Assembly: GCA_946800325.1 (NCBI GenBank)
Contig: OX326957.1
Span: forward strand, 64,113,570 to 64,177,569
DNA: 64,000 nucleotides
Source: Luzula sylvatica
Lineage: Eukaryota > Streptophyta > Magnoliopsida > Poales > Juncaceae
Reading direction: 5' to 3'
The notes under the pieces were generated by a model. The model was not told the DNA's origin and ran no database searches. It saw only the letters and a list, made by a program, of their open reading frames with translations. Both the position numbers and the translations under genes were made by a program. Below, piece by piece: positions 4,656 to 62,396 of this stretch (its first letter is position 1; each line of letters opens with the position of its first letter).

Positions 4656-5618
4656 TGTTGGGTATCGGTGTCACTACCGAGCCCCGCGCAGCGGATTATG
4701 AGGCCCGGTCCGACCCGATCCCGAGGACCACGTCAACGACCCGAAAGTACGAATCATGAAATGCATCTAACCTATGAAATTAACTCTTAATTCATAGAGA
4801 ATCATACCGCGTGAAATTGATCACGGAGACGGGTTGACTCTATTAGCTGCTGCTTGCTTCGATTCCGGCGACACGCACGTCCCACGCCCGCGCGATTCGA
4901 CACCTAATGCGAAGCTCCGATTTGTCGTATACAACCGGAATTTATCCGGTTCGTCTCCGACCTTGCTCGTCCTTGCTCTCGATTGATCACAGTCGAAGAT
5001 CTTAACTTAGATCTCTCTACTCGTATCCACCTCGAGCTAACGTCTCTCGGTTGCGGCGAATTCCCCTAAAATTCCCGCAAGCTTGCTCAAATCTTTAATC
5101 CCTTTTCTCCAACTTGTCCAACAAGTTTTTCTCTCTTCTCTAGATCTAGATTACTGGCTTCAGCATCAGAAGGGAGAAGAGAGAGAGAAAGGTTACAGAG
5201 ATTATATAATCAATCTCTGAATTAATGAGTATTAATGAGTATCAAAAACTGCTAATCCAGAATTCGGATCACTGTCCGTCATGACGCACGATATGGTGCG
5301 TCATGACGCACAAGTCACATTTACTTGGATATAGCCGTTATACAGTGTACCGTCATGACGTAGGATAACGTCCGTCATGACGCACCACCGTCATGACGCA
5401 CAACTTGGTGCGTCGTGACGGTATACTCACAGATTGGCTTTTCTCAGAATTACTCTACTGTGCGTCATGACGCACAATATGGTGCGTCATGACGCACCAT
5501 GTAATTTCTGCCAGATTTGCATAATCTTATTATGCATCCAATCGTTCCGACGAACACGTATGTTTGTCTACACTCATTTGTACATTCAACTAGTTGATCT
5601 GTAACTGTATTTCCTTCA
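4656..5618 (-). repeat. LTR of element A (3' LTR in element sense)
   Basis: 963 bp, plus-strand start 'tgttgggtatcgg' and end 'gtatttccttca', repeated at 11379-12341 with no difference seen. In element sense it begins TGAAGGAAATACAG and ends CCCAACA, the same termini as element B. It holds eight palindromic CGTCATGACG-type sites at 5277-5494. Confidence 0.95.
5277..5494. repeat. Palindrome array in element A LTR (CGTCATGACG type)
   Basis: Sites start at 5277, 5299, 5351, 5373, 5389, 5411 (variant CGTCGTGACG), 5463 and 5485. Starts are 22 bp apart within the pairs 5277/5299, 5351/5373, 5389/5411 and 5463/5485. The longest copies extend to a 16-bp perfect palindrome, GTGCGTCATGACGCAC. Two such copies flanking AATATG (5461-5498) can form a 16-bp stem with a 6-base loop. 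The array recurs at 12000-12217 in the other LTR. Confidence 0.93.
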
Positions 5619-5631
5619 GTCTCCCACTCAG
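5619..5631 (-). other. Polypurine tract of element A
   Basis: The reverse complement of 5619-5631 reads ctgagtgggagac and lies directly against the 3' LTR, where the plus-strand primer is expected. Element B has the same gagtgggagac before its 3' LTR. Confidence 0.8.
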
Positions 5632-8600
5632 TTCAAGATCCAACTAAATAAAGTACTAGTGTACATCTCATGTACACATAACCTTAGAGATTGAAATTTA
5701 AGCCCGAAATAAGACAGCTCTATGTGTGACCGCGTAGGTTCGTATCAAGCAATGGTAGTGAACTTATGCCTAAGCTCACGGGCTAATGAGAGGGATCTAG
5801 GAAGAAATCCATCATAGCTTTCCCACGTTGAAAACGAAAATGATTGTGATCATTTATACCCATCTCGAACGGTGGTGTTTAGTTCTCTTGTTCACGATAT
5901 CCGTCAATCAAAAGGCACGGTAATAGTCATCCTTATAATTTGATTGACTAAACTTATTGTCTCGATACCGAATTGAATCAACAAACACAATCGATATTAA
6001 CAATTTAATATCATTGACTCTGGCCAGAGATTTCGTTGATCAATTCATCGATAGGCCTAAGGGATATCTCTTTCTCTCGAAAGGAACAATTTCTATCTTG
6101 ATGACTCACATCAAATTCCGTGTTTCAGATAATACCCGATCATAATCCCATGACCATCCTGTTACAGATGGTGGAAGATTATATCTAAGCATTATGTTAC
6201 GCACGAAAAAATGATCCATGATCATCTCAAGTGTGAAGAACTAAGACCCCATTCGTTACGATTCCATCTACAATGACTAAACCATGTCATGGTATCGCAC
6301 TTTTGGTCAAGTCACAATATGCATAACCTAATGCATATCCATATTCCCGATTTGACAAACTCTTTGTCCTATGATTAGCAAAACATAATCATCACCTCGG
6401 CGAATATGCTAGTGTACATGTTAGTCTATTATCTTATAATAGATATACTTATCACATAAGTATCCTAATCATGACTAGGGACGTTTTTGAAATATAACTT
6501 TTGAAATGTGACGGTTTTACTTAGCATGATCACGTATCACGTAGACGCTCACACAAGTCATAAATCAAGGTTCGTGTAATCAAATTACACAACCACGCAC
6601 AAGTTTTCATATAAGTATAAATGCAAGTAAAATTTTTGAATTTTTGAAATGCACTAATATAGAGTAAGTATTGGTTGATACAGCGTTTACACCTATAATC
6701 TCTGCTAGGATTATAATCTGCGATGACTATCGGTATTAGATAACTATACCTCAAATCTATTCCTCCTCTAGGTATCTCTATACCTATAGTCTTCGCATGA
6801 CATTCATGCTTAACTAGGAAGAAAACAGTTTTTGTAAACGGTTCCGCTACGTTCCCGTTAGTGTCAATTTTTTGTTAGGTATCTAATACCTATTTAAATA
6901 TAAGTTTGAGGGGTTATGTTATTTCAGTTTCTTTTGGTTTATTTTATTTCGACCATCGAAATAGATAACCAAAGAATCCTATTACTTGGGTCAATACCAA
7001 GTATGATCAACACCTTGATCCATAACGTTTCCATTTCGGCTTCGTAAGCCGCATTGAAATCAAATTCCATCGTAGAATTTTCATTTTTTTAGTTGTTGTG
7101 AAACTTTTCCATACAACTTCAATTTAATTTAAGCAAAATATGTACACATTTCGTAAATGTGTTGTATTTTTGGAGAAATGCTATCGGTATAATCCTTTCT
7201 AAAAGGATATTGTTTATTAATTTCAATATGAATCCGAGTTTTTAAATGTTGCATAACTATTATGCATATGTAAAGTATAACCATTATACAACCATATTAA
7301 ATTGTTTTCGTTCGAACCAACCATATGAAGTATTCGAAACGAAATATTCTCTGGATTCGATTGATAATTACGACACTTAATATGAACAATATTTAAAGAT
7401 TAGTACATATCATGGCGTATTTGGAATATTCTATTGTCGAAACATAAAATATCCAATTTTCTACTTTTCTTTAATTCGATGTCGTACATCGATCCTCAGA
7501 AAAACTTCGCCATTCGACATTTGGAAGAAATCCGATATTGGATTTATGTACTGAAAACCATTTTCAGTGTTTTGTCGATGTACATACTTCAATTCAGATC
7601 GAGAAATTTTAAATCTATCTTATAGATTTTTATGCTTATCTAATAAGTTGTCTCGTCTGAATTTTCATAGCGAAACGACAATCGTTTCCTACGAATAATA
7701 TATCGTTCATATATTTTAATATAAGAAATGTATGTGGATCCCACTAACCTTCACATCTACACAAAGCTTTTCTTTTGCTCTTGATAATATTATAACTAAT
7801 TATAATTTTATCAGAATAAAATTCCAATTTCATGAATTATTCTTCAATCCATCATATGAATCGTTGAAATTTGTATACTTTTCTTTTGATTCTTACGAAT
7901 TCCTCCTTGAATCATGAGGACATCCCTAGCAACTCTTGCTTTGAGTTCCCCTTTAATGCCTTAAGCATCTTCGATTCAAAGCTTTTAAGCATCCCTATGA
8001 AGCTCGGGAATCGTCATGTTCATCGAATGCATGTGATATTTCATCACGAAAGTGGAAAAAATCGGTGACAATGCACACAAGATCAAATCTTGTTGCATTA
8101 TTGGTGACAGATTTTCTCCCAATTTCTCGAGACGATCAATCTACATTTGTACCTTTAACACGTGAGTACTAACCAAAGATCCGTTAGGCATCTTACAGTT
8201 AACCAACTCCTTTAATGTATTGAACCTTTCAATACACTCTTGCTCTTGGAACATTTCCTTGAGCGCCGCGTTAATCTTGTACGCATCCGAATGAATCAAG
8301 CTTGATTATTTGTGAAACCTTTTCTTCATGATCATATCATGAATTCTCGAATCTCATAAACATTCTTGCTTTGTAAGTATATATATTCCAATCCACGTTA
8401 GCTTTCACTTTGAAAACTCACTTACATCATATGGGTCATACCCTAAGGAATGTTTAAACCAAGTTCTAAACTTGATGACATGCATGGATTGAATCATGAA
8501 TTCCATGGCACTATGCCATGTGAAATTTTTATACTTTATAGCATCATTTTAGTCCATCGACTCATCATGTATGAGATCGATTCGTTTGTCACATTCTTTG

Positions 8601-10538
8601 ATAAATTCACAATTTATCGATTCGTGACGTGTCTAAATTGATCTATAAAATCGCTTTGTGACCTTGACTTGGATTCATCAACTTTTGATGAAATTCCAAT
8701 CATATTCATCGGTTCAAATGTCCCGTTTCGAGTCTCGAACCTTTCGAGATCGATTCATCTCCCACTAGTCCGCATAGATATACGTGACATTAAGTTCCAA
8801 ACTTATGCACATTAAGTCCTCCTCTAAGAAGGTATCTTTTCGAACTATGAAAATCTTATTTTCATTGGGATATGAAAAATTTGGCATTCTTTAATTTATT
8901 CAAGAATACTCAATAAATGAACATATTAAATTTGAGATTTAATTTATCCAAAACCAGTTTTCGGATTAAATCTTCAAATCTTACAAAAGATAATCATCGG
9001 AAGTTTTTATTAACATTGAACTATTAACGTGCCCGACTTTGGCCTGAAACCACGTTAATCCTCAATTTAATTTCTTTCCGATCCATATCACATATGGGGT
9101 CTTTTGCACCGACTTAGAAGGTATGTGATTAACCTTTGTCTTAAGGGTAAATTTCCAAATCTTATTTGAAAAATTAATTTTGATTTATCATCTATCAAAC
9201 AATGTCCAACAAAGTTTGATTCCTCTTTTCGAACACATTAATCTACATTGATGTTCCGAATTAATATAACTTATGAAACTTTTCCATAAATTTTCAAGAT
9301 GATTATCATACTCATAGCTTAAAATGTTCGTCTCTTCGATCTTATCGAAAGACTTTGATTTTCTCGCTTAGCTGACTTCGTATTTCATTTCGAAACGTTT
9401 TTGAACCATTCAAAATTATGTTTCAAACGCATTAAATAGATATCTTTATATCTACAATAATCGTTAGTAAATATAATGAAATATTTGTAGCCTCCTCTTG
9501 CCTCCGAACTTACTTATTTACCTACATTCAAAATGTTTGGTTTTTGATAAGTCTTTGACCGTTTTTCCAACCTTTGGAATGACACTTTTATCATCTTGAT
9601 TAATTAACAAGTCTTGTACTTGTCATGCGAATCTTATTCGAATAAAACTAGTATTCCATCCAATGGATTCTAGAAATGTATATCTCATACACATTTTCAA
9701 GATGATAATGTCAAAAGAAGCTATTTCTATCAACTTTTGGATTAATCACCCTTAGACTCTTGTTTCTTATAAATCTTCAAACTCTTTTGAAGGTTCGTGT
9801 CTATGTATGTCAACATTTGATATACAATATTATTTGACTTCTTCTCAAGTTTGTCAGATTTTTGCTTAAATTATTATTCTACATGAATTATGACATTGAC
9901 AACTAACCGTGCGTACTTATTCTATATGCTTATATGATATGAAATATGTTATTTTTATCAAATCAATAACCCTAATATTGATTCGGGATTCTTAATCCAA
10001 TAGCACTTCAAGACCCATATTTCATGATCCTCCCATAAGTGACTTTGGCCGACAAATGGGATCTCACTATTTAGGTAGGATAAATCCAATCACATCCAAT
10101 GTGACTCTTGACCCATTATAGGATTTAGGTATCAAACCATATCATATATGATTCGAATTCCGTTTGTGCATCCTAACTATGCCCCGAACCCCAATCGGAT
10201 TGGCTTGGACGGTTAAGTCACAACCATATTCACGTATCGTTCAATTGAGCTACAAATGCGCCCGACTTTGGCCTGAACCCGCATTTGTCCCCAATCAACG
10301 CTTGCCTCTCACGTTGATACATACAACAATGCACGCCCGACTTTGGCCTGAAACCGTACAAGGTGTGATGACCAACCTCGGAGGTTGTGAACATGGAAGG
10401 CATTTTATGACTTAAATATTATGCAGGGATTTATGTGATATAATCTAATTATATCATTGAGCAAGTATATCATGATGAATGAACATAATTAATAATTATT
10501 AGAACCAAAATAAATAAATCAGAAAAAATTACATGGTG
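5632..10538 (-). pseudogene. Decayed interior of element A (gag-pol remnants and 3' untranslated region)
   Basis: No open frame longer than about 80 codons on either strand. Homology is by comparison with element B: 8760-8850 matches B's integrase-end region in reverse complement, and 10020-10150 matches B's 57490-57620. The 18-mer gcccgactttggcctgaa occurs three times (9032, 10259, 10334), and B has three related motifs in its own interior. No intact retrotransposon protein can be read. Confidence 0.7.
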
Positions 10539-11137
10539 CGTCATGACGCAACATAACGTCCGTCATGACGCACAGTACTAAATTGGATTTTCTTTGACTT
10601 CCGTCATGACGCACAACTTGGTGCGTCACGACGGACCTCACTCGTTCGTCATGACGCCATAGAGTGCGTCATGACGGACAATACAAAACAATTTTGTTGT
10701 CCAATCCAGAGAGTTTTTCAGGTCCGTCCGTCATGACGGTTGGTTACTACCGTCACGGCGGACTGTGACTGACCGTCATGACGCCAGACGGTGCGTCATG
10801 ACGCACTGTACAAAATAATTTTGTCCAGTTTGCCAGAAACTTTTCAAGTTCTTCCGTCATGACGGTTGGTTATACCGTCACGACGGACTGTTCTGGTCCG
10901 TCATGACGCCAGAGGTTGCGTCATGACGCACTGAACAAAACCATTTTGTTCGGTTTGCCAGAGAGTTTTTGGGCTTCTACCGTCACGACGCACCAAACGG
11001 TCCGTCATGATGGTACGAACTTACACAGTGCGTCGTGACGCACAACTTGGTGCGTCATGACGGACTGAGTAACGCCTCAGATCCAACTCTTGGATTTCCC
11101 GTGTGCGTCATGACGCACCAAATCGTGCGTCATGACG
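10539..11137. repeat. Palindrome array in element A leader
   Basis: About 20 copies of CGTCATGACG or one- to two-base variants (CGTCACGACG, CGTCGTGACG, CGTCACGGCG, CGTCATGATG), arranged as about ten pairs. Starts within a pair are 20-22 bp apart, most often 22 (10539/10561, 10602/10624, 11106/11128). The block lies between the primer-binding site and the gag region in element sense. The bases just inside and outside a pair tend to be complementary between its two members, which lengthens the possible stem. Confidence 0.92.
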
Positions 11138-11365
11138 CACCAGACCTGAATTTCATATTTACTTCTGATTTTCGATCGTTTCCAAAACGATCAATCATGA
11201 ACAATTCATGATTACTTCTAGATTCTTTTGATCATCTTATGATCAAATACTAGCAAGTTTTCTATGGTCCTAATTTTACAACTACATGATTATGTCCTAA
11301 AATTCTACATGAAATTCCGAATAACACTTATTCGAAATCGATTCGACGATCGAATCGTGACGATC

Positions 11366-11377
11366 GCTCTGATACCA
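11366..11377 (-). other. Primer-binding site of element A
   Basis: The reverse complement reads tggtatcagagc, the standard plant LTR-retrotransposon primer-binding site complementary to the 3' end of initiator tRNA-Met. It sits one base from the 5' LTR end at 11379. Confidence 0.9.
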
Positions 11378-11378
11378 C

Positions 11379-12341
11379 TGTTGGGTATCGGTGTCACTAC
11401 CGAGCCCCGCGCAGCGGATTATGAGGCCCGGTCCGACCCGATCCCGAGGACCACGTCAACGACCCGAAAGTACGAATCATGAAATGCATCTAACCTATGA
11501 AATTAACTCTTAATTCATAGAGAATCATACCGCGTGAAATTGATCACGGAGACGGGTTGACTCTATTAGCTGCTGCTTGCTTCGATTCCGGCGACACGCA
11601 CGTCCCACGCCCGCGCGATTCGACACCTAATGCGAAGCTCCGATTTGTCGTATACAACCGGAATTTATCCGGTTCGTCTCCGACCTTGCTCGTCCTTGCT
11701 CTCGATTGATCACAGTCGAAGATCTTAACTTAGATCTCTCTACTCGTATCCACCTCGAGCTAACGTCTCTCGGTTGCGGCGAATTCCCCTAAAATTCCCG
11801 CAAGCTTGCTCAAATCTTTAATCCCTTTTCTCCAACTTGTCCAACAAGTTTTTCTCTCTTCTCTAGATCTAGATTACTGGCTTCAGCATCAGAAGGGAGA
11901 AGAGAGAGAGAAAGGTTACAGAGATTATATAATCAATCTCTGAATTAATGAGTATTAATGAGTATCAAAAACTGCTAATCCAGAATTCGGATCACTGTCC
12001 GTCATGACGCACGATATGGTGCGTCATGACGCACAAGTCACATTTACTTGGATATAGCCGTTATACAGTGTACCGTCATGACGTAGGATAACGTCCGTCA
12101 TGACGCACCACCGTCATGACGCACAACTTGGTGCGTCGTGACGGTATACTCACAGATTGGCTTTTCTCAGAATTACTCTACTGTGCGTCATGACGCACAA
12201 TATGGTGCGTCATGACGCACCATGTAATTTCTGCCAGATTTGCATAATCTTATTATGCATCCAATCGTTCCGACGAACACGTATGTTTGTCTACACTCAT
12301 TTGTACATTCAACTAGTTGATCTGTAACTGTATTTCCTTCA
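11379..12341 (-). repeat. LTR of element A (5' LTR in element sense)
   Basis: 963 bp copy of 4656-5618 with no difference seen by eye, followed by target duplication TCATT at 12342-12346. It carries the same eight palindrome sites (12000-12217). Confidence 0.95.
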
Positions 12342-18717: not shown

Positions 18718-18737
18718 GATTTCTCTATCTTACAACA

Positions 18738-27489: not shown

Positions 27490-27534
<45 letters not shown>

Positions 27535-28129: not shown

Positions 28130-28385
28130 AACTTGTAGGAGAAATAGGTACAACGGACTAAGGATGATCAAAAGAGATGATTGAAGAAGTCAAGACGAAG
28201 ATCATTCGTGAAAGGAAAGGTGTCAAGACATTGAAGAATTCAAGACGTCCAAGCTTTCCGTGAGTTGGGATCATCAAAATAAACCCTAGGTATTCCAAAG
28301 AACTTATCATACGTATCAAGGTCAAAAGATAAATTCGAAACACGATGAAATGAAAAATGGAAAATCACCATACCAGATTATGGTT

Positions 28386-28862
28386 CGTTCGAACGAACAA
28401 CTCAGTGCGTTCGAACGAATAGTCAGTTCGAACTGATAAACACCATCCGTTCGAACGAACCAAGATCTGGCATTGTGAGAAAATAGACAACACTAGACAC
28501 AATTAATTTTCGTTCGAACGAACCAATATATTCGTTCGAACGAACCGTCATGGTTCGTTCCATCATAGAACGAACTATAAATCACCTCACGTTCGTTCGA
28601 ACGGATACTACTGTTCGTTCGAACGAACCAAGATCTGGTGTTGTTGGAAAATATACCAAAACTAGACACAATTAATATTCGTTCGAACGAACTTATTTGG
28701 TCGTTCGAACGAACCTTCATGGTTCGTTCCAAGATTCATAGAACGAACTATGAATTAATCCTTGTCCGTTCGAACGAACCTATGGGTCCGTTCGAACGAA
28801 CCTATCGTGTTTATGAATATTTCATTTGAAACGGCTAGTTCAAATTGCAGTTAGTTCGAACG
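28386..28862. repeat. Palindrome array in element C LTR (CGTTCGAACG type)
   Basis: Ten CGTTCGAACG copies form five pairs exactly 22 bp apart: 28386/28408, 28511/28533, 28594/28616, 28680/28702 and 28767/28789. Single or variant sites lie near 28425 (AGTTCGAACT), 28448 and 28853. The fullest copies are 16-bp perfect palindromes, GTTCGTTCGAACGAAC. Two further stem-loops have the same arms with the centre opened: ggttcgttc...gaacgaact near 28552 and 28730. Part of the array is a ~170-bp tandem duplication (28458-28540 against 28629-28710). Confidence 0.93.
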
Positions 28863-28886
28863 AACTATGTAATTTTTACACAGTTT

Positions 28887-29451
28887 GAGTGGGTTCTATG
28901 AGTCATATAAATAGAATCACTCATACCTTTCTCTCTCCAACCTTTTACAAAAACTTATTCTACATCCAAAAGAGAGAAAGACTTCAAGCCGTGATTTCCC
29001 TAATCTCTTGATAATGTGATTCAACCTTCTAGATCCAAGATATATCTTCGAATCTTCTCTTCTATACGATTCCCAACTCACGTGACCGATCACGTTGTAG
29101 TTCGTATTAGAAACGTGTAATAGGCTAATTCTTGAATTGTAAAGCCCGCCATAGATCGATACAAAACGTGTAAATCGATCTAGGCAAAACCTTGTACGAG
29201 TGAGTTGGAATTCAATCGAACGCCGAAACGGCACAAGGCCTTCCCGGAGACGTAGGTACTTGCCACTAATCGAATCGGTCGATTAAGCAAGTAACGGGTG
29301 AGTTAAAACTACAAAGCAACCAGCTACCGAACTCCGTAACAAACATCGTGTGTTCATCTCTTCGGTATTTGCATTATATTAATTCTATCATTTTAAGCTT
29401 CTGCAAAATTGAGAATTGGTACACCTTAATCGAAAATTGTAGATTAGGAAT
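28887..29451 (+). repeat. Element C left LTR, right-hand part
   Basis: 565-bp segment repeated at 34019-34583, beginning gagtgggttctatgagtca with a TATA-like catataaatagaa. About eight single-base differences (roughly 1.4%) suggest an older insertion than elements A and B. Confidence 0.88.
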
Positions 29452-29786
29452 TGGAATATTTGGAAAAGGTGCATGCTTAATGTATTCACCATCCAAGGGC
29501 TAAGATCGGTTGTTGAAATTGGTTTCACAATCATAACAACTACCGATGCTGGCGGTAAGGATGTATTAACATCCGAGTCTTCGTTAAACGAAACCTCGGA
29601 TATTTACGCTCAAAATCTAATTCTTACTAACATGGTAGGATCACTATCGGTCCTAGTAGACGGATGTGACACATCTTTTAAAATGTGGCGCGCTCTCCTA
29701 AATCGTTTTGAAGGAAACGATCAAATGAAGAGAACCAATCTAATGGGACTCGAGCAACAATTTGATAGTTTCCGGATGATCGAAGG
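29452..29786 (+). pseudogene. Element C gag, first part
   Basis: An in-frame segment beginning WNIWKRCMLNVFTIQGL, the usual 'W..W...M...L..QGLW.VVE.G' start region of copia gag, through DIYAQNLILTNMVGSL and FKMWRALLNRFEGNDQ to FDSFRMIEG. It lacks the true N-terminus, which a deletion removed with the leader. It is cut after MIEG by the hAT insertion. No start codon of its own is expected; the ATG at 29473 is internal. Confidence 0.8.
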
Positions 29787-30626
29787 TAGGGATGTCAACG
29801 GGGCGGGTCGGGTTCGGGTAAGCCTTCCCCATACCCGAACCCGAATTTTCGGGTATTACCCGAACCCGAACCCAAAATACCCGCGGGTAAAATTTCATAC
29901 CCGAACCCGCGGGTAAATTCGTACCCGCGGGTATTACCCGTTACCCGAAATTATATATTTTTTTTTTTTTGAATGATTAAATTTTCTGATTCTTTTTGAG
30001 ATAATTTTTGTCCAAAATCAAATAATGTCTAAATATTCACAGTGAGTCAGTGACATAAATACTCACCAATTAAAATCAAATACATAAAGATCCAAGCAAT
30101 TTAAATAAATTAAAATATCCAAAATCAAATAAATTAAAATATCCAAGCAATTTAAATTGTCCAAAACAATCCAACAATAACTTGAAATACATAAAGATCC
30201 AACATTACAATAATTAAATATTAAATATCCCAAATGTTCAAATATCAAATCGCATCTCTAACTAATTGGTCCTCCACGAATACTTGTTTCCGCATGCGAC
30301 TCGATCTATAAAAAATTCCAATATATTATGATGGATAAACGAACATAACTTATAAATAATATAAAAAAGGGCCAATTTCATATGTATCCCTACTTAACAT
30401 CAAAATAACATATTTATCCCTTTAAAACAAATAATAACATATTTATCCTTCCAAAACTCAATTTGTATCAAATTTATCCACATACAATTTAGAAAATATC
30501 AAATTTATCCGAACGGTTAAGTCACTGTTAAATTAACCATAATTTAAATTTGAAATCTAATTAAATCAACTTAATATAAAATTAAATGACCAAACTACCC
30601 CCTTCACTCGAATCATCTCTAACCAT

Positions 30627-30664
<38 letters not shown>

Positions 30665-31781
30665 GACTTGGTCTCTCCTCTCGATTCACAGCATAAATCT
30701 TGAACTACTGTATGAATTTCTAATTAGCCTTTCCTAATTTTAAACCAATTAGATTTCTCTTCTATCAAAAACTTGAACTAGTGTATGAATGAAATGTCCA
30801 ATTTTAACAGAATAATCCAATTGACTGTTAATTTGATACTAAGTGAGTTTAGGAGGGATAAATATGTCATTAACAGTTTTTGAAGGATAAATATGTCATT
30901 TTGATGTTAAAGAGGGATATATTAGTAATTCTCCCTATAAAAAATTACCTCGTCATCTTCCTCCGCGCCGTCCGAAAATGGATGACATTGCGAATAATCT
31001 ATTTGCGTGCTCTCCGCTTGACAAGCACCTAAAAAATTCGAAATAAATTAAATTCGCAAAAATAAATTATTTATAATTAAAAGAAAAAATAATATTTCAC
31101 TTACCATTCCAATCGATGATTGATTTTGCGTGCTCGATTGTGGGGTTAACTCGACCGGAGAAGAATCAATTGTATTTGCACGCTCGATTTGGGGATTATT
31201 ACTACTACTATCTCCGGTTTCCAAATTCATCGCAATTTAATACTACAATTTGAGATAAAAATACAAATAACAAATCAAAAAATACTTTGTTTGTTTTACT
31301 TAAAATCAGAAACTTTTGACAGGGAATTTACAGAAATATAGCTAGATTCATATATGATTCAAGAAAAAGCATAAAATGTACAGAAAAAACTGAGTTAAAC
31401 TGAGTTATTTGAAAGGGACCTGACTGAGAAGCAGGCGCGGGCGTGGGCAGGGCGACGGGCGTGGGTCGAAGCGGGCGTGGGCGTGGGTTGAATCGTTGAA
31501 GGAGCTAAACTGAGCCGATCCGATCGCCAGTGTGAGCCTGACTGAGCGGGGCTGCGTCGGTTGAAGTTGAGATTTCTCCTCTCTCTTGAGTCTGAGTCTC
31601 TGGCGGCTAACTCCTAAGAATAATAAGATAAAGAGTACGAGTCTAAGAAGACCTAAAAAAGGACCCGCGGGTATTTGTTTCGGGTAATACCCGCCCCGTT
31701 CGGGTCGGATACCCGCGGGTTTCGGGTTTTACCCGACCCATTGACATCCCGAACATTCGGGTTCGGGTATGGGGTCGGGTA
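29787..31781 (-). mobile_element. hAT-type deletion derivative inserted in element C gag
   Basis: Left end TAGGGATGTCAACGGGGCGG; right end region, reverse complement, gggatgtcaatgggtcgggt. Two more elements with the same ends are at 40950 and 43566, one with an 8-bp target duplication, so hAT is the best assignment. On the minus strand a Ser/Pro/Glu-rich start codon frame at 31230 (MNLETGDSSSNNPQIE...) ends near a gtaagt donor at about 31100. A second acidic exon-like piece (QAESTQIDYSQCHPFSDGAE) sits near 30950-31030. They resemble the N-terminal part of a hAT transposase gene, with the catalytic part gone. (CT)n at 30631-30661. The right boundary is blurred by an extra gttcgggtatggggtcggg stretch. 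Confidence 0.7.
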
Positions 31782-32540
31782 GATGATATGTATACTCGTA
31801 TGAATCATATCAAAAACGGATTCACCGCTCTTGGAGAGTCCCTAACAAACTCTCGAGTTGTAGGTAAATTGATTCGAGCAATGCCAACGAGTTGGGAAAC
31901 CCTAAGGGTGGCATTGAAAACAATGATGGCTACACAAGACATGTCTCCCGAAGATTTGGTAAGTTACTTCCGAAACTTCGAAGCACGGCTCAAGCAACTA
32001 AATCAAGAGAATGCCTCAACACCTCGCCCCAAAGTCATTGCTCTACCCGCCGTGGATGCTAGCGACGATGAGAGTGAAATAGCACTTTTGGTAAGAAAAT
32101 TTAGGGATTTTAGGACTCATGAAAGACGGTTCAACGACAACCGCAAGCGACAAAACTTGAAGCCATATTGCTTTGAGTGCAACAAGAAGGGCCACACAAT
32201 CGAGACATGTTGGACTCTTCATCCCGAACATGCTCCGTGGAACAAAAAGGATGACGAGCGAAAAGATCGGGAAAGACGTGAACCTCGACGCGAAAGACGA
32301 CACGACGACAAAGGTCGAGAAGAACGACGCAAGGATAAAGGTAAATATTTCAAAAATAAAAAGGCTTACAAAGCTCATGTAGGAAGATGGGGAGAGTCAG
32401 ATGTCTCAAGTACATCATCCGAGTCGGAGTGCAACTCGGATCGAGAAACCGCGAACTTGGCACTTATGGCGACGATCACTCCTTCGGTGGACGATGTAGT
32501 GGAGAAAGCAATTCAAGCCATGCTTCTACAAAGAGTGTAA
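31782..32540 (+). pseudogene. Element C gag, second part with zinc knuckle
   Basis: Resumes gag after the hAT insert: DDMYTRMNHIKNGFTALGES, RVVGKLIRAMPTSWETL and the LVSYFRNFEARL region. Next comes a CCHC zinc knuckle (CFECNKKGHTIETC, C-x2-C-x4-H-x4-C near 32169-32210) that would bind retroelement RNA, and then a very basic Arg/Lys/Asp region. The ANLALMATITPS motif seen after the knuckle in SIRE-type gag follows. A TAA at 32538-32540 interrupts the frame. Confidence 0.85.
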
Positions 32541-33107
32541 ATACCAGAACCTCTCACGCCTCACTCTCCGAGTGTTTCTTCACCCGTTTCTACGTCAAGC
32601 TCAACACATGACCTAGGTCATGAGGTATATCTCACACCCGTAATTAAGTTTATTAAGCCAACCTCAAATGCATGTTCCTTATCTAAACTAAATTCGGACC
32701 TAGAACTTGAATCTCTCGACGCACTTTTAAGAGACGTTGATTTTCCTCATCAAAGTGAGGGTAAGGCCGAGAGCACGATAGCGGCTCTCGAGGCTAAGGT
32801 AGTATCTTTAGAATTATCCGTTGAGTCTTATAAATCACAACTTAACGAATTGAAATGTTTTTCAAAATGTGAATGTCAAACCCTAAAAGGCGAGATTTCA
32901 CATCTAAAAGTTGAACTTCAAAATTTAAAAGTTGAAAATACATCCTTGAAGAAAGCTTGTGCAAACAAAGCATCTAGCTCTCCTTCGTTGGATGACGTTT
33001 TAAAGGGGTCATTAAAAGGACAAAAACCTAATGACAAATCGGGTCTAGGGTTCAAGAAGGATATCGGTCATAAATCCGGTCCTTCCAAATCCAAAGATCA
33101 AAAATAA
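32541..33107 (+). pseudogene. Element C gag, coiled-coil part after in-frame stop
   Basis: The same frame continues past the stop at 32540 without further stops to 33105-33107. It includes a leucine-heptad segment (EISHLKVELQNLKVENTSLK). This matches the coiled coil that follows the knuckle in SIRE-like copia polyproteins, so the stop at 32540 is a mutation, not a natural end. Confidence 0.75.
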
Positions 33108-33148
33108 AATGGGAGAACAATCGAATCAATAGTCACGGAAATGCTTTC

Positions 33149-33658
33149 ATGTACCGTGACTATAATCAGGATAAAAGTGGTAAAATGGAACAACCTAAAA
33201 ATGTTAGGGTTAATAATAGGAATAATCATTTTACACATACTTCATCTTATAGACGTACCAATTTGGGACGAACTGATTGCTTGTTCAAACGGGGACCAAA
33301 TGGGTATTTCTATGAGGTGAAGCAAAACACCGACGCTTCGTATCAAACAAGGGCTCCCAAACATTTCACTAACACACAAAAACATTTTTCAACGAGAAAC
33401 TATTGTGAAAAATTGACCAAACCGAAAATTCAAAAGAACAACTACCCAAACCAACTCTCGAGTCATTTCGTCAAGAGTTCCGAGACTCTCAACAAACCTA
33501 CAATTGCATTTTGCAATTATTGTTGTAAATTAGGGCACATCTCCACTAGTTGCAATCTTCGCAATCCTAAAAATAACTCTCATGTCATGTGGATGCGTAA
33601 AGATAGACACACCATGGGTCCCTCCACCTCAAAGGGTGTTGGACCATCAAGGAAGTAA
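33149..33658 (+). pseudogene. Element C gag-pol linker with second CCHC knuckle
   Basis: A frame of 169 codons, shifted relative to the upstream one. It carries a second knuckle CNYCCKLGHISTSC (C-x2-C-x4-H-x4-C) and ends with a WMRKDRHTMGPSTSKGV linker, as found before the protease in SIRE-type copia elements. Confidence 0.75.
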
Positions 33659-33771
33659 GTCAAGTGTGACTTCGTACTCCCTCACCCTACTACCATAAGC
33701 CAAATATTGAGGGGGAGTATTAGTATAAGAATTCATATTAGATTAATTTTTGTTATGAATATTCAACTAAT

Positions 33772-34018
33772 ATGGATTTCTTATATATGTGCCTAAGTTC
33801 CTCAAATAAGTCATCGAAATGGTGTCTAGACAGTGGGTGTTCTAGACACATGACTTGGAACCGAGACATGTTCAAATCTCTCAAACCTTTCAAAGGAGGA
33901 GACGTTACCTTCGGAGGAAACCAAAAAGGTAAAATTGTCGGTATCGGCTCTATAGGAACCACCAATTGGATCTTTGAAAATGTGTACCTAGTTGTAGGGT
34001 TAAAGCATAACCTAATTA
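33772..34018 (+). pseudogene. Element C protease fragment
   Basis: Reads KWCLDSGCSRHMTWNRDMF, with the DSG active-site triad of retropepsins, then VTFGGNQKGKIVGIG and VYLVVGLKHNL. The text then passes into LTR sequence at 34019, so all of pol downstream of protease is missing. Confidence 0.85.
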
Positions 34019-34583
34019 GAGTGGGTTCTATGAGTCATATAAATAGAATCACTCATACCTTTCTCTCTCCAACCTTTTACAAAAACTTATTCTACATCCA
34101 AAAGAGAGAAAGACTTCAAGCCGTGATTTCCCTAATCTCTTGATAATGTGATTCAACCTTCTAGATCCAAGATATATCTTCGAATATTCTCTTCTATACG
34201 ATTCCCAACTCACGTGACCGATCACGTTGTAGTTCGTATTAGAAACGTGTAATAGGCTAATTCTTGAATTGTAAAGCCCGCCATAGATCGATACAAAACG
34301 TGTAAATCGATCTAGGCAAAACCTTGTACGAGTGAGTTGGAATTCAATCGAACGCCGAAACGGCACAAGGCCTTCCTGGAGACGTAGGTGCTTGCCACTA
34401 ATCGAATCGGTCGATTAATCAAGTAACGGGTGAGTTAAAGCTACAAAGCAACCACCTACCGAACTCCGTAACAAACATCGTGTGTTCATCTCTTCGGTAT
34501 TTGCATTATATTAATTATATCATTTTAAGCTTCCGCAAAATTGAGAATTGGTACACCTTAATCGAAAATTGTAGATTAGGAAT
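34019..34583 (+). repeat. Element C right LTR, truncated on its left
   Basis: Copy of 28887-29451. It continues to the right with 'tacctattcacccccctcta', a stretch commonly seen near the ends of copia LTRs; the left LTR lacks it because of a deletion there. The palindrome array is absent from this copy because the pol-LTR deletion removed that part. Confidence 0.85.
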
Positions 34584-34603
34584 ACCTATTCACCCCCCTC
34601 TAT

Positions 34604-36796
34604 GTTAGAATTAACCAAGAAAATCAAGTAACATTGCAAAGGCATAATGATAAACAAATCCACTTTGAAGTTGACTTATTCGCTCGGCCAATCGTCGGAA
34701 AATCTAATCATTTTCAGCCAATATAAATAATTCAATTCTCCATAATAATACACACACATATATATATCACATATATATTATATGTATTCATTTATTTTGA
34801 ATTATCATATACATATTTTTGATCTTTCCAATATGTATATCGTATACGCATATTATTTAGAGAATATCGATTCGTCCAACAAGACTAACACATTGGTGTG
34901 ACCTAGTAGGTTCGATTAATTGGTAACGAACCAAACTTAGTTCGTAAATCATTACCCAAATTAAAACGAATGATCCGTGATCATTTTCCTAGCAAGATAG
35001 TTATGTGACTTGATCCTTTTGTTCTACAATACTTGCTAATCACAAGACAGGGCTATCATATCAACCTTGATTTGATTAGCGTACTTTTCTCGATCGAGAA
35101 TTGAATTGACAAAAGACAAAATGATATTATCAAAAAATAGCATTGCCATGCATTTCCTCAGTTTCAATTCAACGGATGGACAAAGATATCTAAAGAGGCG
35201 AAGAAATCCACTTTTGGTTGCTCACATTCCTCGTCGTGTTTCGCTTCATACCCTACACCATCCTATCAGTCATTGATCAAGACGACATATAAATGTATCA
35301 AAGCATGAAGTTCCACACATAGTAATCCATGACAACCTCAGGTCGTAGGACTAATCAAACTATATGTCATGGGAAGCGTTGATGACAATAACCATGCATC
35401 AGCCAATGTGGTAGTCATTCCATTATGTAATCTCTATTACATATATATGCTCCAAACTTGATAACCAGTATTCATGGTTCGCAAAATGTAACCATCAATT
35501 TGCAAACACACTAGTGTGAGTACATAGTTTTCCTAGTTAAGTTTCACTATCAAAGTCTCTACAAATGTCTTATGTACTACTAGGAATTACTTTTAGAATT
35601 ACATTTTCTTTGATTCATAGTTTCACAATCATAGTCACGTACTTTGATGATATGATCGATATTGTCATTCAAGGTTTATTCTTTTAAGATTAAAATCAAA
35701 ACCAAATACACTTAACAATATTAATAATAAGAAATTTTTATTAAATAAATAATGTTGCATTACATAATCATTCGTAACTATTACATTGGCCTAGGACACT
35801 ACACCTTCAGAACATAATTAATGTTTTGTTTACAAGGTATGTGTTTCATTCAAAACGTAACTAATTGTACCACCTTCAAAACTGGATCGGACCTTCCACT
35901 ACACCTTCAAAACGTAATTAGTCTTTGTCGACTTTCATAATAAACAATATTAGTGTTTTGTTGAAGTTGTTTGGATTTAGTTTGTTCTGGTTAGTGTTTG
36001 TTTTGTTTGATGCTAGTTGTTGTATTTCATTTCATGTTGAAGTCGGTTATGTATTGGTCTTATGTTCAAGTATTGTATCATGATTTTTTTCATATTTCTT
36101 GTGTTGTAATCAAAAATCAATTTAAAACCATGACAGAAATTCCAAGATGTACCAAGATACACTAAATAGAAAAAATCAAAAATACCCCCTAAATAATATC
36201 ATGCCAGAAATTCCATGATATCTACAATCGACATCAAATATTACATCACCAAGACAACCGAACATTAAAAGGTCTTTTTCTTTTATGCCATTGGAACGTA
36301 CAATTTTTTCGCATCATGTTAGCACAAAATCCTCACCAATATGCACGCCTTAGAGTTTCCATTGTACATCGCAATGATCTTTGAGTTTAGATACACAGAC
36401 TCCAAAAGTCCAATTATTGGGAAAGATTTCCATAATTAAGGACTGTTCAAATAAAATGAAGAAAAAACAAATATTATAAATTATACTACTTAAATTACTC
36501 CAAAAATAAACTTACCACAAGTTCCATGAGGTCATGATTCATTTCTATGGAAAATATATCAAGGTCAAAGTCTATACTCGCACGGCAAGAAAAATCCATT
36601 TCATCCATTACACTACACGATTGTTTTGGGAGGAGCAAACGATATATTTTACATTGTTGTACTAATAAAATACACCGGATCACTATATATATACACTGTT
36701 CAGCGAAAATCTTGGAGGGACAATCGCCCCTCTTGCCCCTACTAAGATTCGTCCCTGTACTCGTGTCATACACCGTGAATCAGTGTTCCCTACACC
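34604..36796. other. Repeat-derived intergenic DNA, no gene
   Basis: 34860-35720 contains noncoding sequence of the style seen in copia 3' untranslated regions (compare element A 5640-6480) and may be an eroded minus-oriented fragment, but this is weak. 35790-35940 has three short 'accttcaaaacgtaat'-like repeats. 36690-36770 carries 'ggacaatcgcccctcttgcc', a transposon-like remnant. Frames here are short and unsupported. Confidence 0.35.
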
Positions 36797-51827: not shown

Positions 51828-52645
<818 letters not shown>

Positions 52646-52720
52646 GATACACCATTCTCGTCTTCTCCCCTAATCTTTCATTTGCAACCCTCTTCCTCCA
52701 CATCTGACACTCGAACAATC

Positions 52721-55006
52721 ATGGACATCAACCACCCATGGCCTCCTGAACCATTACCAATGCAATATGCCACGTTGAGCAAGACAGAAGAACATTCAAA
52801 GATTGAAAACGCCCTGGATAGAACAGTTTTTTTGCAATCGATGATACACAATTACATCTCGCCTCCCCATCTCATTACAGAGGCCTTTATCACACAATAC
52901 GGTGGTCTCAATAGTAACTACACAATCTCATCTTATGAGGGGAACTCATGCTTGTGTAAGCTCCCAGAATGGGTTACGGTGGACGAGGTTATCAGAGACT
53001 CCATGTTCTTCCACGATCAACACCAGTTTATCCCTTTCCCGTGGCAAACGGCTATGGCAACCTTTCCCGTTCAACGTTTCTTTAGGGTTAATCTCAGGAT
53101 GACCAACTTTCCATTAAATTTCTGGCACTACGAAAATTTCAAACAAGCAATTGTGCCTATGGGAAGGATTCTCGCAGTAGCACGGGATAATCTCACCGGA
53201 GTAAACAAGTCAGCACTCCGAATCTCTATAATCACCCAATCACCTAACCTTATACCGCCAATTCTGCGCCTAACACATGGTAAGGAATGGGGTGATGTGC
53301 ACATTCAACGCGATGATGAATTTGTGGTGGATGAGTATGGTCACCCTCTACCTCCAGGAGACCAAGCTATCGAGATCAATGAGAGAGGTAACGACGGTGA
53401 AAATCCCCCTTTTCTGGAAGAGGAGATAACCTTTCATGAAATTGAAGCAGTGAGATCCGGTCAGGAAAACAGGCGTGTTAGGAATAATACTTCAATGAGA
53501 ACCAATGATCTCACAGCCAGGACTGGCACAAGAGACACATCCGTCACCGCAGTAGTTCAAACAGGTGCAGTAACCCTAATTTCCAAGTTTGACACACACA
53601 TAGCCACACAATCGGGGATGGTATGTGACACAGAGAAGGTGGCAAACAAAAAACTGACAACCTGCTCACTGCTGGAAATTACAACCAATACAGAGGTACT
53701 AGGCACTATAGTAAACAGTGTGGATGGGGGCCCACCCAAGAATAAGGCCAAGAATAATATGGATACAAAGCATACGTGCCCTAAAACGAATGGGATATCC
53801 TTGCCAAAAATATCTATTCTGGGGCCTGGGCCAAATAAGACGAAGGCAGCTCATCGTGTAGGTTTCTCTCACCTCCAACTTAATAGCACTCACAGATCCC
53901 TAAATTCTAGCACTTCTCTCTCACTCTCTTCTCACAAATTTCAAAACCTCTCTCTACCACCTCGAAATTTCCAAATGGCACACCGTAACCATGTCCACCA
54001 ACCCCCCAGCCCTGAAGATGAACTGATTAATAGATTGGCTCAGATTCATATGCCTCAACTCGGTGAAAAGCAAGCTGTGAGACTATCACAAGATGCTATG
54101 GCTAAGAGAAACTGGGCCAAGTCCATTTTAGTAAAGCTCATCACGAAAAAACCGGTTTTCGAAGTCACCTTTACTGCTGCTATGATACGTGCATGGAATG
54201 TGGATCCATCGTGCGAGTTCGTAGACATGGGAGACAATAGATTCCTCGTAGAACTAGGAGATGAAGAGGAAAGAGACCGGATCCTAGACAAAGGTCCATG
54301 GTCTTATCGGCAAGAAGTAGTTATAACAAAGAGAGTTCATAGTGAAAAGGAAATGGAGGAATCGGATTTTTCTGAATTAGAAGGATGGATTCAGTTGCAT
54401 TGCTCTAAGTTTGAAGCGTTAACGAGTCTAGGCATTAAAGAAATAGCTTCGTTGATCGGGCCGGTTTTATCCGAGCCGGTCCAGGGTTTTATTAATGGTA
54501 AGAAGTTCTTTAAGGTGCGAGTCAAGGTGCCTACGTGCAAGGCACTTAAAGATAGAATCGAAGCTGAACTGGCACCGGGGGAAAAGTTTATAGTCTATCT
54601 CGTTTATGAAAGAATTAATAGGATATGTAATTTCTGTGGGATTATAGGACACGAAGTGACTCAATGCCGAGATCATAAGCGGGTTCTCGAGCTATATAAT
54701 ACCCAGAAACCAGCCTCTCCACTCATTCAGCAGCTCATCACCAAGCGACTGGGTAAATGGATGACTGAGCCGATCTTAGTACCGCGACCTTTTGTTAAAA
54801 AGACAGTAGAATTGAGACAGAACACTGGAGGTAGTAAGAGGCATGGTAGAAATGGTCCAGAAGAGACACATAACATGTATGATATAGAAATGGAAGGTGT
54901 GCATGCCCAGTCAAGGAGTGAAACACAAGAGTCTATGTCACCGCATTCGAATGCACCAAAGAGGATAAAGGCGGCGGGTTCCACTGTGGAACCGCCGCTA
55001 CATTAA
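52721..55006 (+). CDS. L1-type LINE ORF1 protein with unusually long N-terminal part
   Basis: The first ATG in a long open frame is at 52721 (MDINHPWPPEP), giving 761 residues. Upstream codons in frame lack ATG. The C-terminal part, from an internal Met at 53975 (MAHRNHVHQPPSPEDELINR), is a standard plant L1 ORF1. It has a DUF4283-like region (NRFLVELGDEEERDRILDKG, PWSYRQEVVI) and then a CCHC knuckle, CNFCGIIGHEVTQC, for RNA binding. The preceding ~418 residues contain a second DUF4283-like stretch (RFFRVNLRMTNFPLNFWHYE, VPMGRILAVARDNLTG) and then a low-complexity linker. The stop TAATG at 55004-55008 overlaps the ORF2 start by one base. Confidence 0.82.
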   Translation: MDINHPWPPEPLPMQYATLSKTEEHSKIENALDRTVFLQSMIHNYISPPHLITEAFITQYGGLNSNYTISSYEGNSCLCKLPEWVTVDEVIRDSMFFHDQHQFIPFPWQTAMATFPVQRFFRVNLRMTNFPLNFWHYENFKQAIVPMGRILAVARDNLTGVNKSALRISIITQSPNLIPPILRLTHGKEWGDVHIQRDDEFVVDEYGHPLPPGDQAIEINERGNDGENPPFLEEEITFHEIEAVRSGQENRRVRNNTSMRTNDLTARTGTRDTSVTAVVQTGAVTLISKFDTHIATQSGMVCDTEKVANKKLTTCSLLEITTNTEVLGTIVNSVDGGPPKNKAKNNMDTKHTCPKTNGISLPKISILGPGPNKTKAAHRVGFSHLQLNSTHRSLNSSTSLSLSSHKFQNLSLPPRNFQMAHRNHVHQPPSPEDELINRLAQIHMPQLGEKQAVRLSQDAMAKRNWAKSILVKLITKKPVFEVTFTAAMIRAWNVDPSCEFVDMGDNRFLVELGDEEERDRILDKGPWSYRQEVVITKRVHSEKEMEESDFSELEGWIQLHCSKFEALTSLGIKEIASLIGPVLSEPVQGFINGKKFFKVRVKVPTCKALKDRIEAELAPGEKFIVYLVYERINRICNFCGIIGHEVTQCRDHKRVLELYNTQKPASPLIQQLITKRLGKWMTEPILVPRPFVKKTVELRQNTGGSKRHGRNGPEETHNMYDIEMEGVHAQSRSETQESMSPHSNAPKRIKAAGSTVEPPLH

Positions 55007-55184
55007 TGCATATCCTGTCTTGGAACGGCCGGGGCTGTGGAGGCCCGGCAACTATTCGTTCCATCAAACGTTACCTCCACAGCGCTTGTATCGACCTTTC
55101 GTTCATTTTCGATACAAGATGCTCCATATCCAAATCCGCCCACCTCCTTCGATCCATCCCTTTAGAACAGTCTCATGTGGTACC

Positions 55185-56185
55185 TGAAGGAAATACAGTT
55201 TCAGGATCAACCGTAAAAGTGTACACAAGGATAAACGAATGTAGTCGTACATTCGTAGCCATATCTTTCAGTAGGAAAATCCGATTTGAATGGTTCAAAT
55301 TGGGTAAGATAGATAATTAGATTATCTATAACCTTCATGTAGAAATATATTTCATATGAACGAAGTATAAGTGTCGTTTCTGTGAAATACCGAAAGGGTG
55401 CAACAGTATGACATACAGTTAGTAAAACAGTCATAACTTTTGCATACGAACTCCAATTGGGCTGGGCCAAATTGGGTCGAGTAGATAATGAGATTATCTA
55501 CAACTTTCGTGTTGGTTGATTTTCTGTCAGAGAAATTTATCAATTTCGTCTGGACAGAATACTGACCAGGTTCATGCAGTTTTCTGTGTGAGAGGGTGTA
55601 TATTGGATATACATGCCTTTTGGCTAATCCTGATCCTATTGTATATAAATAGGATTTTCTCTCTCATCTTAAAAAAAAGCAATTCATTCAGAATTATCCA
55701 GAAAATTGTGAGACAAATTTCTAGAGAGTGAAAAGATGTAAAAGAGAGAAACCGTGAAAAGGTGTTTTACGGTTTAGAGAATCAATTCGATTAAGCAAGT
55801 TCACCGGTGCATCGTCTAGGCAGGTGCATCCGTGACCGACGTCTTGCGATTCAAGGTGGATACACGTAGAGGAGCAACAACTGAGGCTCTCACGATTGTG
55901 ATCGATTCGGACGAGTAGATTGAGTCGGAGACGAAATCAAGCGAATCGGCGAAGTCAACGAGCGGTGAAAGACGCGTGGTGTGGGACGCGCGTATTGTCA
56001 CCAACGTGACAGGAGAAAGAAGGCAGCGATCAACCCTTCGTGTGCAATCAATTTTGCACCGGTAAAGATCTAACCTTCTATTTGCATCGTACCCTCGAAG
56101 TCGTGGCGTGATCTCGGGAATCGGGGAACCGGACCGGGCCTACATATCCGCTGCGCGGGCCCGGGGCCGGGGATATTCCCCAACA
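55185..56185 (+). repeat. 5' LTR of element B
   Basis: 1001 bp, TGAAGGAAATACAG...ATTCCCCAACA. TATA-like tgtatataaatagga at about 55640. A GC-rich part follows near 55800-56000 and 56100-56180. Confidence 0.95.
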
Positions 56186-56186
56186 G

Positions 56187-56198
56187 TGGTATCAGAGC
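56187..56198 (+). other. Primer-binding site of element B
   Basis: tggtatcagagc, complementary to initiator tRNA-Met, one base after the 5' LTR. Same site and spacing as in element A. Confidence 0.92.
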
Positions 56199-56442
56199 GA
56201 TCGCCATCGATTCGAGGGTCGAATCATAGTCGTATATTAGATATACGCACGGGTTATCAAAGTTCGTACCCGTTTGCATGATGTTACATATTTAGAATGT
56301 CAAATTCCATTAAAATCACAAGTGAAATTCGCTAGAGATCGATCAATAGTTGATTGAGAGTATCTAGGAATAATCGTGAAAAGGTTTCATGATTGATCGT
56401 TTTGAAAACGAGCGAAAACAGCAGTTCAAAAATCGCATAGTC

Positions 56443-56951
56443 CGTCGCAACGGACACTGTAGCAGATACAGGAAATTGAGAATTTTTCGAAAAAACACAT
56501 ATTCCGTTGTAACGGACTTGGAGTCCGTTGCAACGGACCCTGTATAGGATGCGGGGGTGTGAAGAGAACTGTGAAAAACGCATATTCCGTTGCAACGGAC
56601 TTGGAGTCCGTTGTAACGGAACCTGTATCAGATACGAGGTTGCGGGGATGCCAGTGGTGTCTATTGGAGTCCGTGGTAACGGACTGGGTCCGTTATAACG
56701 GATGTCTACGCAGTTTTGTCCGTTGCAACGGACTATATGTTGCGTTGTAACGGACAGGTTTCTGGAAATTTGGACAAAGGTTTGCAGAAAATAGCGTTGT
56801 AACGGACCAAGGTTGCGTTGCAACGGACATGTTTCTGGCAATTTTGGCCAAACTCCGGAATAAATAGCGTTGTAACGGACTGGTATTCCGTTGTAACGGA
56901 GTGCCAAGTATACAGGAGGTCCGTTGCAACGGACTATGTTGCGTTGCAACG
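56443..56951. repeat. Palindrome array in element B leader (CGTTGCAACG type)
   Basis: About 15 sites of CGTTGCAACG or CGTTGTAACG and variants, often within TCCGTTGCAACGGA, a 14-bp perfect palindrome. Many are paired 19-22 bp apart: 56505/56526 and 56588/56609 (21), 56922/56942 (20). Pairs such as tccgttgtaacggact-tgg-agtccgttgcaacgga fold into a 16-bp stem, and the variant C/T in the centre leaves a G-U pair. The array lies between the primer-binding site and the gag remnant, the same place as in element A. Confidence 0.92.
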
Positions 56952-62390: not shown

Positions 62391-62396
62391 GAAATT

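Follow-up and report, generated by a model that had tools for sequence, protein, structure and literature searches.

Palindrome arrays with a common half-site frame in LTR retrotransposons of Luzula sylvatica: candidate protein-binding DNA elements

A 64,000-nt stretch of the Luzula sylvatica genome (445 Mb, 37 contigs), here termed the window, contains three long terminal repeat (LTR) retrotransposons, A, B and C, which carry arrays of short near-palindromic sites that share a design of about GTnCGTnnnnACGnAC. The explanation ranked first, and held to be moderately probable on the evidence of sequence and position, is that these are cis-regulatory arrays of Copia-type retrotransposons whose sites would be recognized by protein at the DNA level. 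Each site would consist of two facing half-sites, GTnCGTnn, bound by a dimeric DNA-binding protein, with the centre and the base at position -1 setting which protein binds. Successive dimers would sit on the same helical face and would probably cooperate. The array might work as an enhancer, a boundary or an anti-silencing element, both near the promoter, in the U3 (unique 3′) region of the LTR, and just inside the transcript, in the 5′ leader. It may also be a cassette that is gained, lost or swapped by recombination with relatives, such that all sites of a new centre arrive together.

Site counts and site design

The pattern CGTNNNNACG has 68 matches in the window, compared with a mean of 6.6 and a maximum of 13 in 100 dinucleotide-preserving shuffles. 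Sixty-two of the matches are within arrays, in stretches 5277–5552, 10539–11137 and 12000–12275 (A), 28386–28798 (C) and 56443–56951 (B). Individual arrays hold 9–18 sites against 0.26–0.64 in 500 shuffles, which is 20–44 times the shuffled count. The original prediction, that three LTR elements have palindrome arrays of a common design, is borne out by these numbers.

A chance origin of the arrays is ruled out, as shuffles do not yield such site counts. A single simple expansion is ruled out as well: between tandem units that were chosen by hand and aligned, the 10-bp cores show 97% (A), 87 and 93% (B) and 100% (C) identity, whereas the spacers show 59% (A), 49% (B) and 79% (C). Equal frequency in shuffled sequence and one microsatellite-like expansion were among the outcomes named at the outset as telling against the prediction. 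Neither of these two was found: shuffled array sequence is without such sites, and in the hand-chosen units cores were kept while spacers diverged.

The flanking CGT...ACG had been described as constant. This frame is indeed common to A, B and C, but the constant part is wider, GT-n-CGT-nnnn-ACG-n-AC. The central four bases were said to be always self-complementary, and this is incorrect. In B, 7 of 15 sites are self-complementary, the centres being TGCA (6), TGTA (6), TATA, CGCA and GGTA (one each), and TGTA is the commonest B-type centre. The 28 A sites of the leader and one U3 have CATG (22), CACG (4) and CGTG (2), and TCGA is present in all 13 C sites; these window counts include some sites with a changed arm base.

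Two sets of sites from the genome provide a broader sample. One consists of 302 array sites in 13 stretches picked for the A-type 16-mer; the other, of 291 mostly B-type sites in 40 leaders picked only by the junction at the primer-binding site (PBS), with TGTA as the centre of 165. Among the 302 sites, T at -2 (263) and A at +2 (252) are the most constant, followed by G at -3 (216) and C at +3 (210), and in 290 of the sites the base at -1 is other than A (132 G, 99 C and 59 T, with A in 12). The leaders have T at -2 in 252, A at +2 in 284 and C at +3 in 240 of the 291 sites, but either G (145) or T (136) at -3, which is therefore the least fixed position. Within a single site, the bases at -1 and +1 show no covariation (14 matches in A against an expectation of 12.8, p 0.40, with similar outcomes in B and C), as is expected for separate half-sites.

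A and B are relatives of each other, which leaves no more than two independent lineages in the window. The agreement between C and A/B is one comparison; once the CG dyad is given, a rough calculation puts the probability that three further half-site positions also agree at about 1/64. The common frame may reflect shared ancestry, exchange or convergence. The arrays of A and B have one spacer word in common (spacer homology p 0.004), but with p 0.06 for A and C and p 0.80 for B and C a common origin of the C array with those of A/B is not demonstrated.

Spacing of sites

Start-to-start steps within pairs are mostly 22 bp in C, 20–23 bp in A and 19–22 bp in B, as predicted. The other steps in the window are 16–17, 28–41, 52–53 and 61–65 bp. 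With exact duplicates dropped, the 13 stretches provide 165 gaps, of which 74 are 20–23 bp, 9 are 41–45 bp, 22 are 50–53 bp, 20 are 58–64 bp, 17 are 71–75 bp and 8 are 82–87 bp; there are few beyond.

Spacers were clustered at 65% identity before periods were tested. The 72 clusters from the 13 stretches and the window give a maximum at 10.5 bp within the range 8–14 bp (R 0.50, Rayleigh p ~2e-8). For the 60 of these clusters whose gaps exceed 26 bp, the maximum is at 10.75 bp (0.54), higher than in 5000 of 5000 jittered sets. The 40 leaders yield 35 clusters, for which a 0.5-bp grid places the maximum at 10.5 bp (R 0.62, p ~1e-6). Distances between sites concentrate around multiples of 10.5 bp, a pattern that is clear to about eight turns. 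A protein that reads one face needs whole turns of DNA, whereas single-stranded RNA gives no reason for them, and thus the phasing favours recognition of double-stranded DNA. It also favours a role suggested in the original prediction, the binding of a dimeric protein two turns apart.

Occurrence in the host genome

Whole-genome counts cover the A 16-mer, the C 16-mer and one PBS junction. The A 16-mer, GTGCGTCATGACGCAC, occurs 3,253 times, whereas its reversed control is absent and the composition of the window predicts about 0.01 occurrences; the C 16-mer, GTTCGTTCGAACGAAC, is found at 3,017 places (control, 1). For the PBS junction GTGGTATCAGAGCGATC there are 982 + 986 matches and none for the control. 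The 40 leaders are the first 44 of 100 listed matches, all on contig 1, without four that other parts of the analysis already included.

An unselected sample consists of the window and seven 10-kb regions at round coordinates (70 kb). It contains 40 adjacent CGT-ACG pairs 19–24 bp apart, 30 in the window and 10 in regions L037 and L039, and no such pairs with CGA-TCG, CGC-GCG or CGG-CCG. Grouped sites are present in three of the seven regions, although L033 has a mere remnant of three. The 94 grouped sites of the sample fall into CATG/CACG/CGTG (42), TGCA/TGTA/TACA/TATA/CGCA (28), TCGA (16) and others (8). A separate observation is a satellite of about 363 bp in L034 that carries CGTCGAGACG.

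Related elements and leader cassettes

A-group LTRs of the 13 stretches, which are about 76 to 98% identical, carry CATG sites whose positions in U3 hardly vary, but the stretches were picked for the CATG 16-mer and the presence of CATG is therefore partly built in. A-like copies in the unselected regions L033 and L039 (71–73%) have CATG/CACG/CGTG too. Three C-type LTR copies of 74–76% identity (L021, L022 and L025) keep TCGA beside the TATA box.

Two elements are exceptions. The minus-strand element of L023 is 87–91% identical to A downstream of the leader array, 82% in the R-U5 part of the LTR and 70% in the first part of the leader. Its U3 and leader have 12 exact CGT....ACG sites, with the centres TCGA (9), TTTA, TCTA and TTGA (one each) and no CATG. 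From this comparison the element is a mosaic. In L031 a B-like LTR (76% over R-U5) has eight TCGA sites in U3, where B itself has none. These exceptions are evidence of exchange. L020 (642–10000) contains a 5.16-kb unit in two copies, which agree at 99.98% of positions over 4.2 kb; the unit has a mixed TCGA/TGGA/TGCA array together with an A-like LTR with CATG.

With a threshold of three sites, the 40 leaders are typed as TGYA (18), CATG (4), TCGA (1) or none (17). All 17 without a CGT array are 89–99% identical to B over the first ~234 bp. Inverted repeats of the form TTAGATAAT-nnn-ATTATCTA are found in 14 of the 17 by a loose rule, at about 339, 511 and 728, and a stricter rule gives one to three of them in these leaders. 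This alternative cassette (L040, L046, L059 and others) has constant arms and a variable centre and is in the slot of the CGT array. Among the remaining array-less leaders, L045 leads into an open protease/pre-integrase frame, and L066 seems to have lost most of its array. In 28 of 32 array-bearing leaders the first site is 230–275 bp past the PBS.

In a tree of 49 leaders based on the first 225 bp, the TGYA and TTAGATAAT types are intermixed, with five changes each, two of them forced by starred branches. All leader labels together require 10 changes compared with 24.1 when shuffled; the alignment is short, such that 27 of 38 inner branches are open and both TCGA leaders are on long branches. 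Near-identical leaders can thus have a B-type array, another inverted-repeat cassette or neither, and the leader slot is, on this evidence, modular. As one of two alternatives to convergence or its like, it had been suggested that the layout is old and its centre fast-evolving. The layout is shared, but a fast-evolving centre is too simple an account, as mosaics and cassette changes indicate exchange of whole modules.

Recognition as DNA or as RNA

The U3 arrays of A and C are upstream of the TATA box, and this place points to transcription. Several observations weigh against protein recognition of DNA. In the window alone, with all gaps included, a 14-bp period comes close, with 0.66 against 0.70; gaps of 16–17, 28–38 and 58–59 bp are out of phase, and the position at about three turns is nearly empty. 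Spacer clusters share ancestry, the sets share families and some long gaps are sums over decayed sites, and the p-values of the period tests are therefore optimistic. The centres of the 40 leaders have a sense-strand bias (TGTA 165 vs TACA 12, CGTG 17 vs CACG 1), which is predicted by G-U pairing in RNA and not by a symmetric DNA dimer. RNA folding is strong, with z-scores of -17.1 for the A leader (20 shuffles), -9.2 for the A U3 (200 shuffles), -15.1 for B and -13.9 for C (100 shuffles each). In addition, B is without a U3 array and 17 of the 40 leaders are without a CGT array, so that no single array position is required by all families.

The bias and the folding are what an RNA-level element would produce, in which neighbouring palindromes pair into hairpins of the genomic RNA and act, mainly in the leader, as dimerization or packaging signals. 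The leader array is between the PBS and the coding remnant, which suits this role. Centre variants on the sense strand keep G-U pairs in the 40 leaders (in the window this is clear only in B), the inner flanks of paired A sites match in 13 of 18 cases compared with 8.2 expected (p 0.018), and the alternative leader cassette is likewise an inverted repeat. However, any palindrome array folds well, and the z-scores of leaders and U3 regions are therefore not independent evidence. Covariation within the dyad is absent in A, B and C, and matching of inner flanks is absent in B and C. The bias may also stem from few ancestral sites, since 13 of 15 B-type site places have mostly one centre across related leaders; with copies related in this way, it counts for few independent events. 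An RNA element leaves the DNA-type spacing unexplained, as it does the position upstream of TATA, and is considered unlikely, although it is a rival to be taken seriously.

Neutral or selfish turnover, whereby hairpin-prone repeats expand and homogenize by template switching and unequal exchange and have no function, could account for the tandem units inside arrays, the mosaic element and the 17 leaders that manage without a CGT array. It is harder to reconcile with cores that are kept at 87–100% between hand-chosen units with spacers at 49–79%, with a half-site frame common to two lineages and with a spacing pattern that holds across dissimilar spacers, and it appears improbable. The least probable is a silencing target, in which hairpin RNA from the array would feed small RNAs and the centre would change to escape: maize Sirevirus LTRs, which resemble these elements in palindrome-rich U3 and strong RNA structure, are reported in later papers to have small-RNA hotspots at their palindromes (Bousios et al., 2016, in PMC5311732, PMC10760457), but here a few centre words recur across families rather than many, which is no escape pattern, and the stable CATG of A-group LTRs counts little because the stretches were picked for it.

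Protein-read DNA is thus preferred; among known plant factors, as-1/TGA, MYB and NAC half-sites were considered. A more specific form of this explanation can be put forward tentatively. The small vocabulary of centres (CATG, TGYA and TCGA) in one frame, in two lineages, on one helical face and in exchangeable cassettes might be an address code. Its readers would be dimeric proteins of one small paralogous family, and it would determine which elements are jointly transcribed or unsilenced.

Comparison with known systems

The closest parallel is with Sireviruses. The account by Bousios et al. (2010; PMC2829016) describes family-specific palindromic motifs in 13 Sireviruses, with 8–32 copies per element and a CGG-CCG signature constant in 12 of the 13, Tnd-1 being the exception. 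The motifs are CpG-rich and are found in U3 upstream of a conserved TATA box, sometimes with a second cluster near env. The cluster starts 200–400 bp into the LTR, and TATA is on average 37 bp past the CpG island. The arrays described here are similar in their near-palindromic copies, family-specific centre, constant outer CG triplet and U3 cluster before TATA. They differ in having CGT-ACG rather than CGG-CCG, in being present also in the non-Sirevirus elements A and B, and in the place of the second cluster, which is the 5′ leader rather than before env. The motif CGGTCGACCG of Vitis differs from CGTTCGAACG of C by one base per arm. Such motifs were called Sirevirus-specific and reported absent from classic Copia elements, and no single factor was found that would bind them; the accessible part of this account (PMC2829016) says nothing of phasing or of cassette exchange. 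C is thus a further member with another signature, and A and B widen the range of this kind of motif by a non-Sirevirus lineage and by a position in the 5′ leader.

Other systems share single features. Repeat arrays, some of them palindromic, are presumed cis-regulatory regions in several element families, according to PMC10760457; these may already include some of the features that seem new in the present arrays. The anti-silencing VANC protein of VANDAL elements is encoded by the element and reads short non-palindromic motifs in repeats in non-coding DNA (PMC5735166). As here, the motifs are short, repeated, non-coding and different between related families of plant elements; unlike them, the present sites are palindromic, and what coding sequence A and B have is limited to short, broken pieces. 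The Drosophila gypsy leader has 12 Su(Hw) sites separated by AT-rich spacers (PMC2374998) and so likewise places repeated binding sites for protein in the leader of an LTR element; the site is a zinc-finger site of another design, and the element is from an animal. The 5′ untranslated region of the Copia element has an activator with symmetry, a likeness to the present motif, and no array of such design is described for it in the accessible part of the paper that names it (PMC2829016).

Leader arrays of this kind, the CGT-ACG frame and phasing have no description among the open-licence papers listed, as far as their accessible text goes; few subscription journals are covered and this is weak evidence of novelty. 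A literature search with CGTTCGAACG gave none on retrotransposons by title among the matches listed. The Rfam scan gave no matches at gathering scores. Viral relatives were sought in IMG/VR by scans for 10-mer pairs, which gave 3, 8 and 4 stretches with at most four palindromic sites each and GC contents of 0.43–0.73; these are taken as chance or phage repeats. One IMG/VR contig (L013, 418–491) has four CGTTCGAACG copies 21–22 bp apart.

The three elements and their surroundings

The coordinates of the elements and arrays are listed in Table 1. The assignment of C to a lineage other than that of A and B, proposed along with its SIRE-like gag, is supported.

Table 1. Elements A, B and C and their arrays in the window (TSD, target site duplication)
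Feature	Position	Strand	Remarks
Element A	4656..12341	-	LTR pair 0/963 mismatches; TSD TCATT
A 5′ LTR	11379..12341	-	U3 array 12000-12217; TATATAA at 11931
A 3′ LTR	4656..5618	-	Identical U3 array at 5277-5494
A leader array	10539..11137	-	Past the PBS; 20 sites, mostly CATG-centred, of which 18 have exact CGT....ACG
C 5′ LTR	28134..29451	+	Start inferred from TGTAGGAG; 3′ end truncated
C U3 array	28386..28862	+	13 sites, centre TCGA; 11 with exact CGT....ACG
C TATA box TATAAATAG	28906..28914	+	43 bp past last site
C internal remnant	29443..34143	+	gag (insertion-interrupted) and protease, deletion-joined to 3′ LTR missing most of U3
C 3′ LTR remnant	34016..34610	+	C-rich run CCCCCC at 34593; end inferred
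Element B	55185..63408	+	LTR 1/1001 mismatches; TSD GTACC; coding broken; relative of A
B leader array	56443..56951	+	15 sites, centres TGCA and TGTA

Element A is a non-autonomous LTR element, probably of Copia type. It is oriented on the minus strand, with arrays in the leader just past the PBS (at 11377, minus) and in the U3 of both LTRs; the U3 array has eight sites, with the centre CATG except for one CGTG. A polypurine tract (PPT)-like sequence, AGTGGGAG, is at 5628. A satellite array of about 175-bp units flanks the element (11–4659 and 12342–14780), so that A is an insertion into satellite. B has no array sites in its LTR, its array being confined to the leader.

A and B have in common the PBS TGGTATCAGAGC, the PPT-like AGTGGGAG and the LTR ends TGAAGG...CCAACA. 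Internal blocks are 70–79% identical, with one 38-bp block at 89% and two blocks in different order. The two arrays occupy the same leader slot: the flanks align with 76% identity on each side and the arrays do not. Neither element has the Sirevirus PPT octamer AGGGGGAG or a run of five C in its LTRs, and both lie outside the Sireviruses, probably within Copia. They are recent full-length copies, their LTR pairs being 100% (A) and 99.9% (B) identical, and with no working coding frame they conform to large non-autonomous (LARD-like) elements. The sense strand of B and the inside of A have only short open pieces, among them a Retrotran_gag_2 piece in A (E 2.2e-3) and a gag_pre-integrs piece in B (E 2.5e-4), both below the Pfam cut-off. 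In L045 a 250-bp B-type leader is followed, on the sense strand, by an open protease and pre-integrase frame with Pol_BBD (2.2e-15) and gag_pre-integrs (5.8e-10) above the cut-off, which suggests that coding relatives of B exist.

C appears to be a deleted Sirevirus-like copy that fits the Sirevirus motif by place, TATA box and CpG density. Its 13 U3 sites begin about 252 bp past the inferred LTR start, and the TATA box follows at the distance given in Table 1 (34 bp in the related copies L021, L022 and L025). All 13 sites are of the CGT-TCGA-ACG type, two with an altered arm base, and none has the CGG-CCG signature. The CCCCCC run agrees with the C-rich integrase signal of Sireviruses, set here against the published description only. 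The Sirevirus junction CA-ATTGG-TATCAGAGC appears to be deleted, no TATCAGAGC being present in 27000–36000, and coding DNA beyond the protease is missing. The LTRs differ at 9 of 568 positions (28884–29451 vs 34016–34583). Because the 3′ LTR is without this U3 part, only one C array remains. Profile matches in the remnant are to Retrotran_gag_2 (E 1.3e-7 and 2e-7) and, in the protease region, Pol_BBD (1.4e-18); a protein search with the gag gave three proteins, none lineage-informative. The PPT octamer AGGGGGAG is found at 33710, between gag and protease, an odd place. The gag is broken by an insertion with CCCGCGGG-type ends (29787 to ~31740), which has a 91% similar piece at 40950–41133 and which we take to resemble a non-autonomous DNA transposon.

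Elsewhere in the window there is a minus-strand frame for peroxisomal PEX11 (17427–18098, E 7e-60), a 338-amino-acid frame with a weak DUF7733 match below cut-off (18738–19754) and, just upstream of B (52682–55006), a 774-amino-acid frame with DUF4283 and a zinc knuckle, presumably of the long interspersed nuclear element (LINE) type.

Implications

A half-site frame that is fixed in two lineages, together with spacing near whole turns, makes a protein reader a testable claim. The thousands of sites in this one 445-Mb genome are natural variants. Near-identical leaders with different cassettes would allow controlled comparison of transcription and methylation, and would tell whether the arrays serve the element, by enhancer or anti-silencing action, or the host, by silencing.

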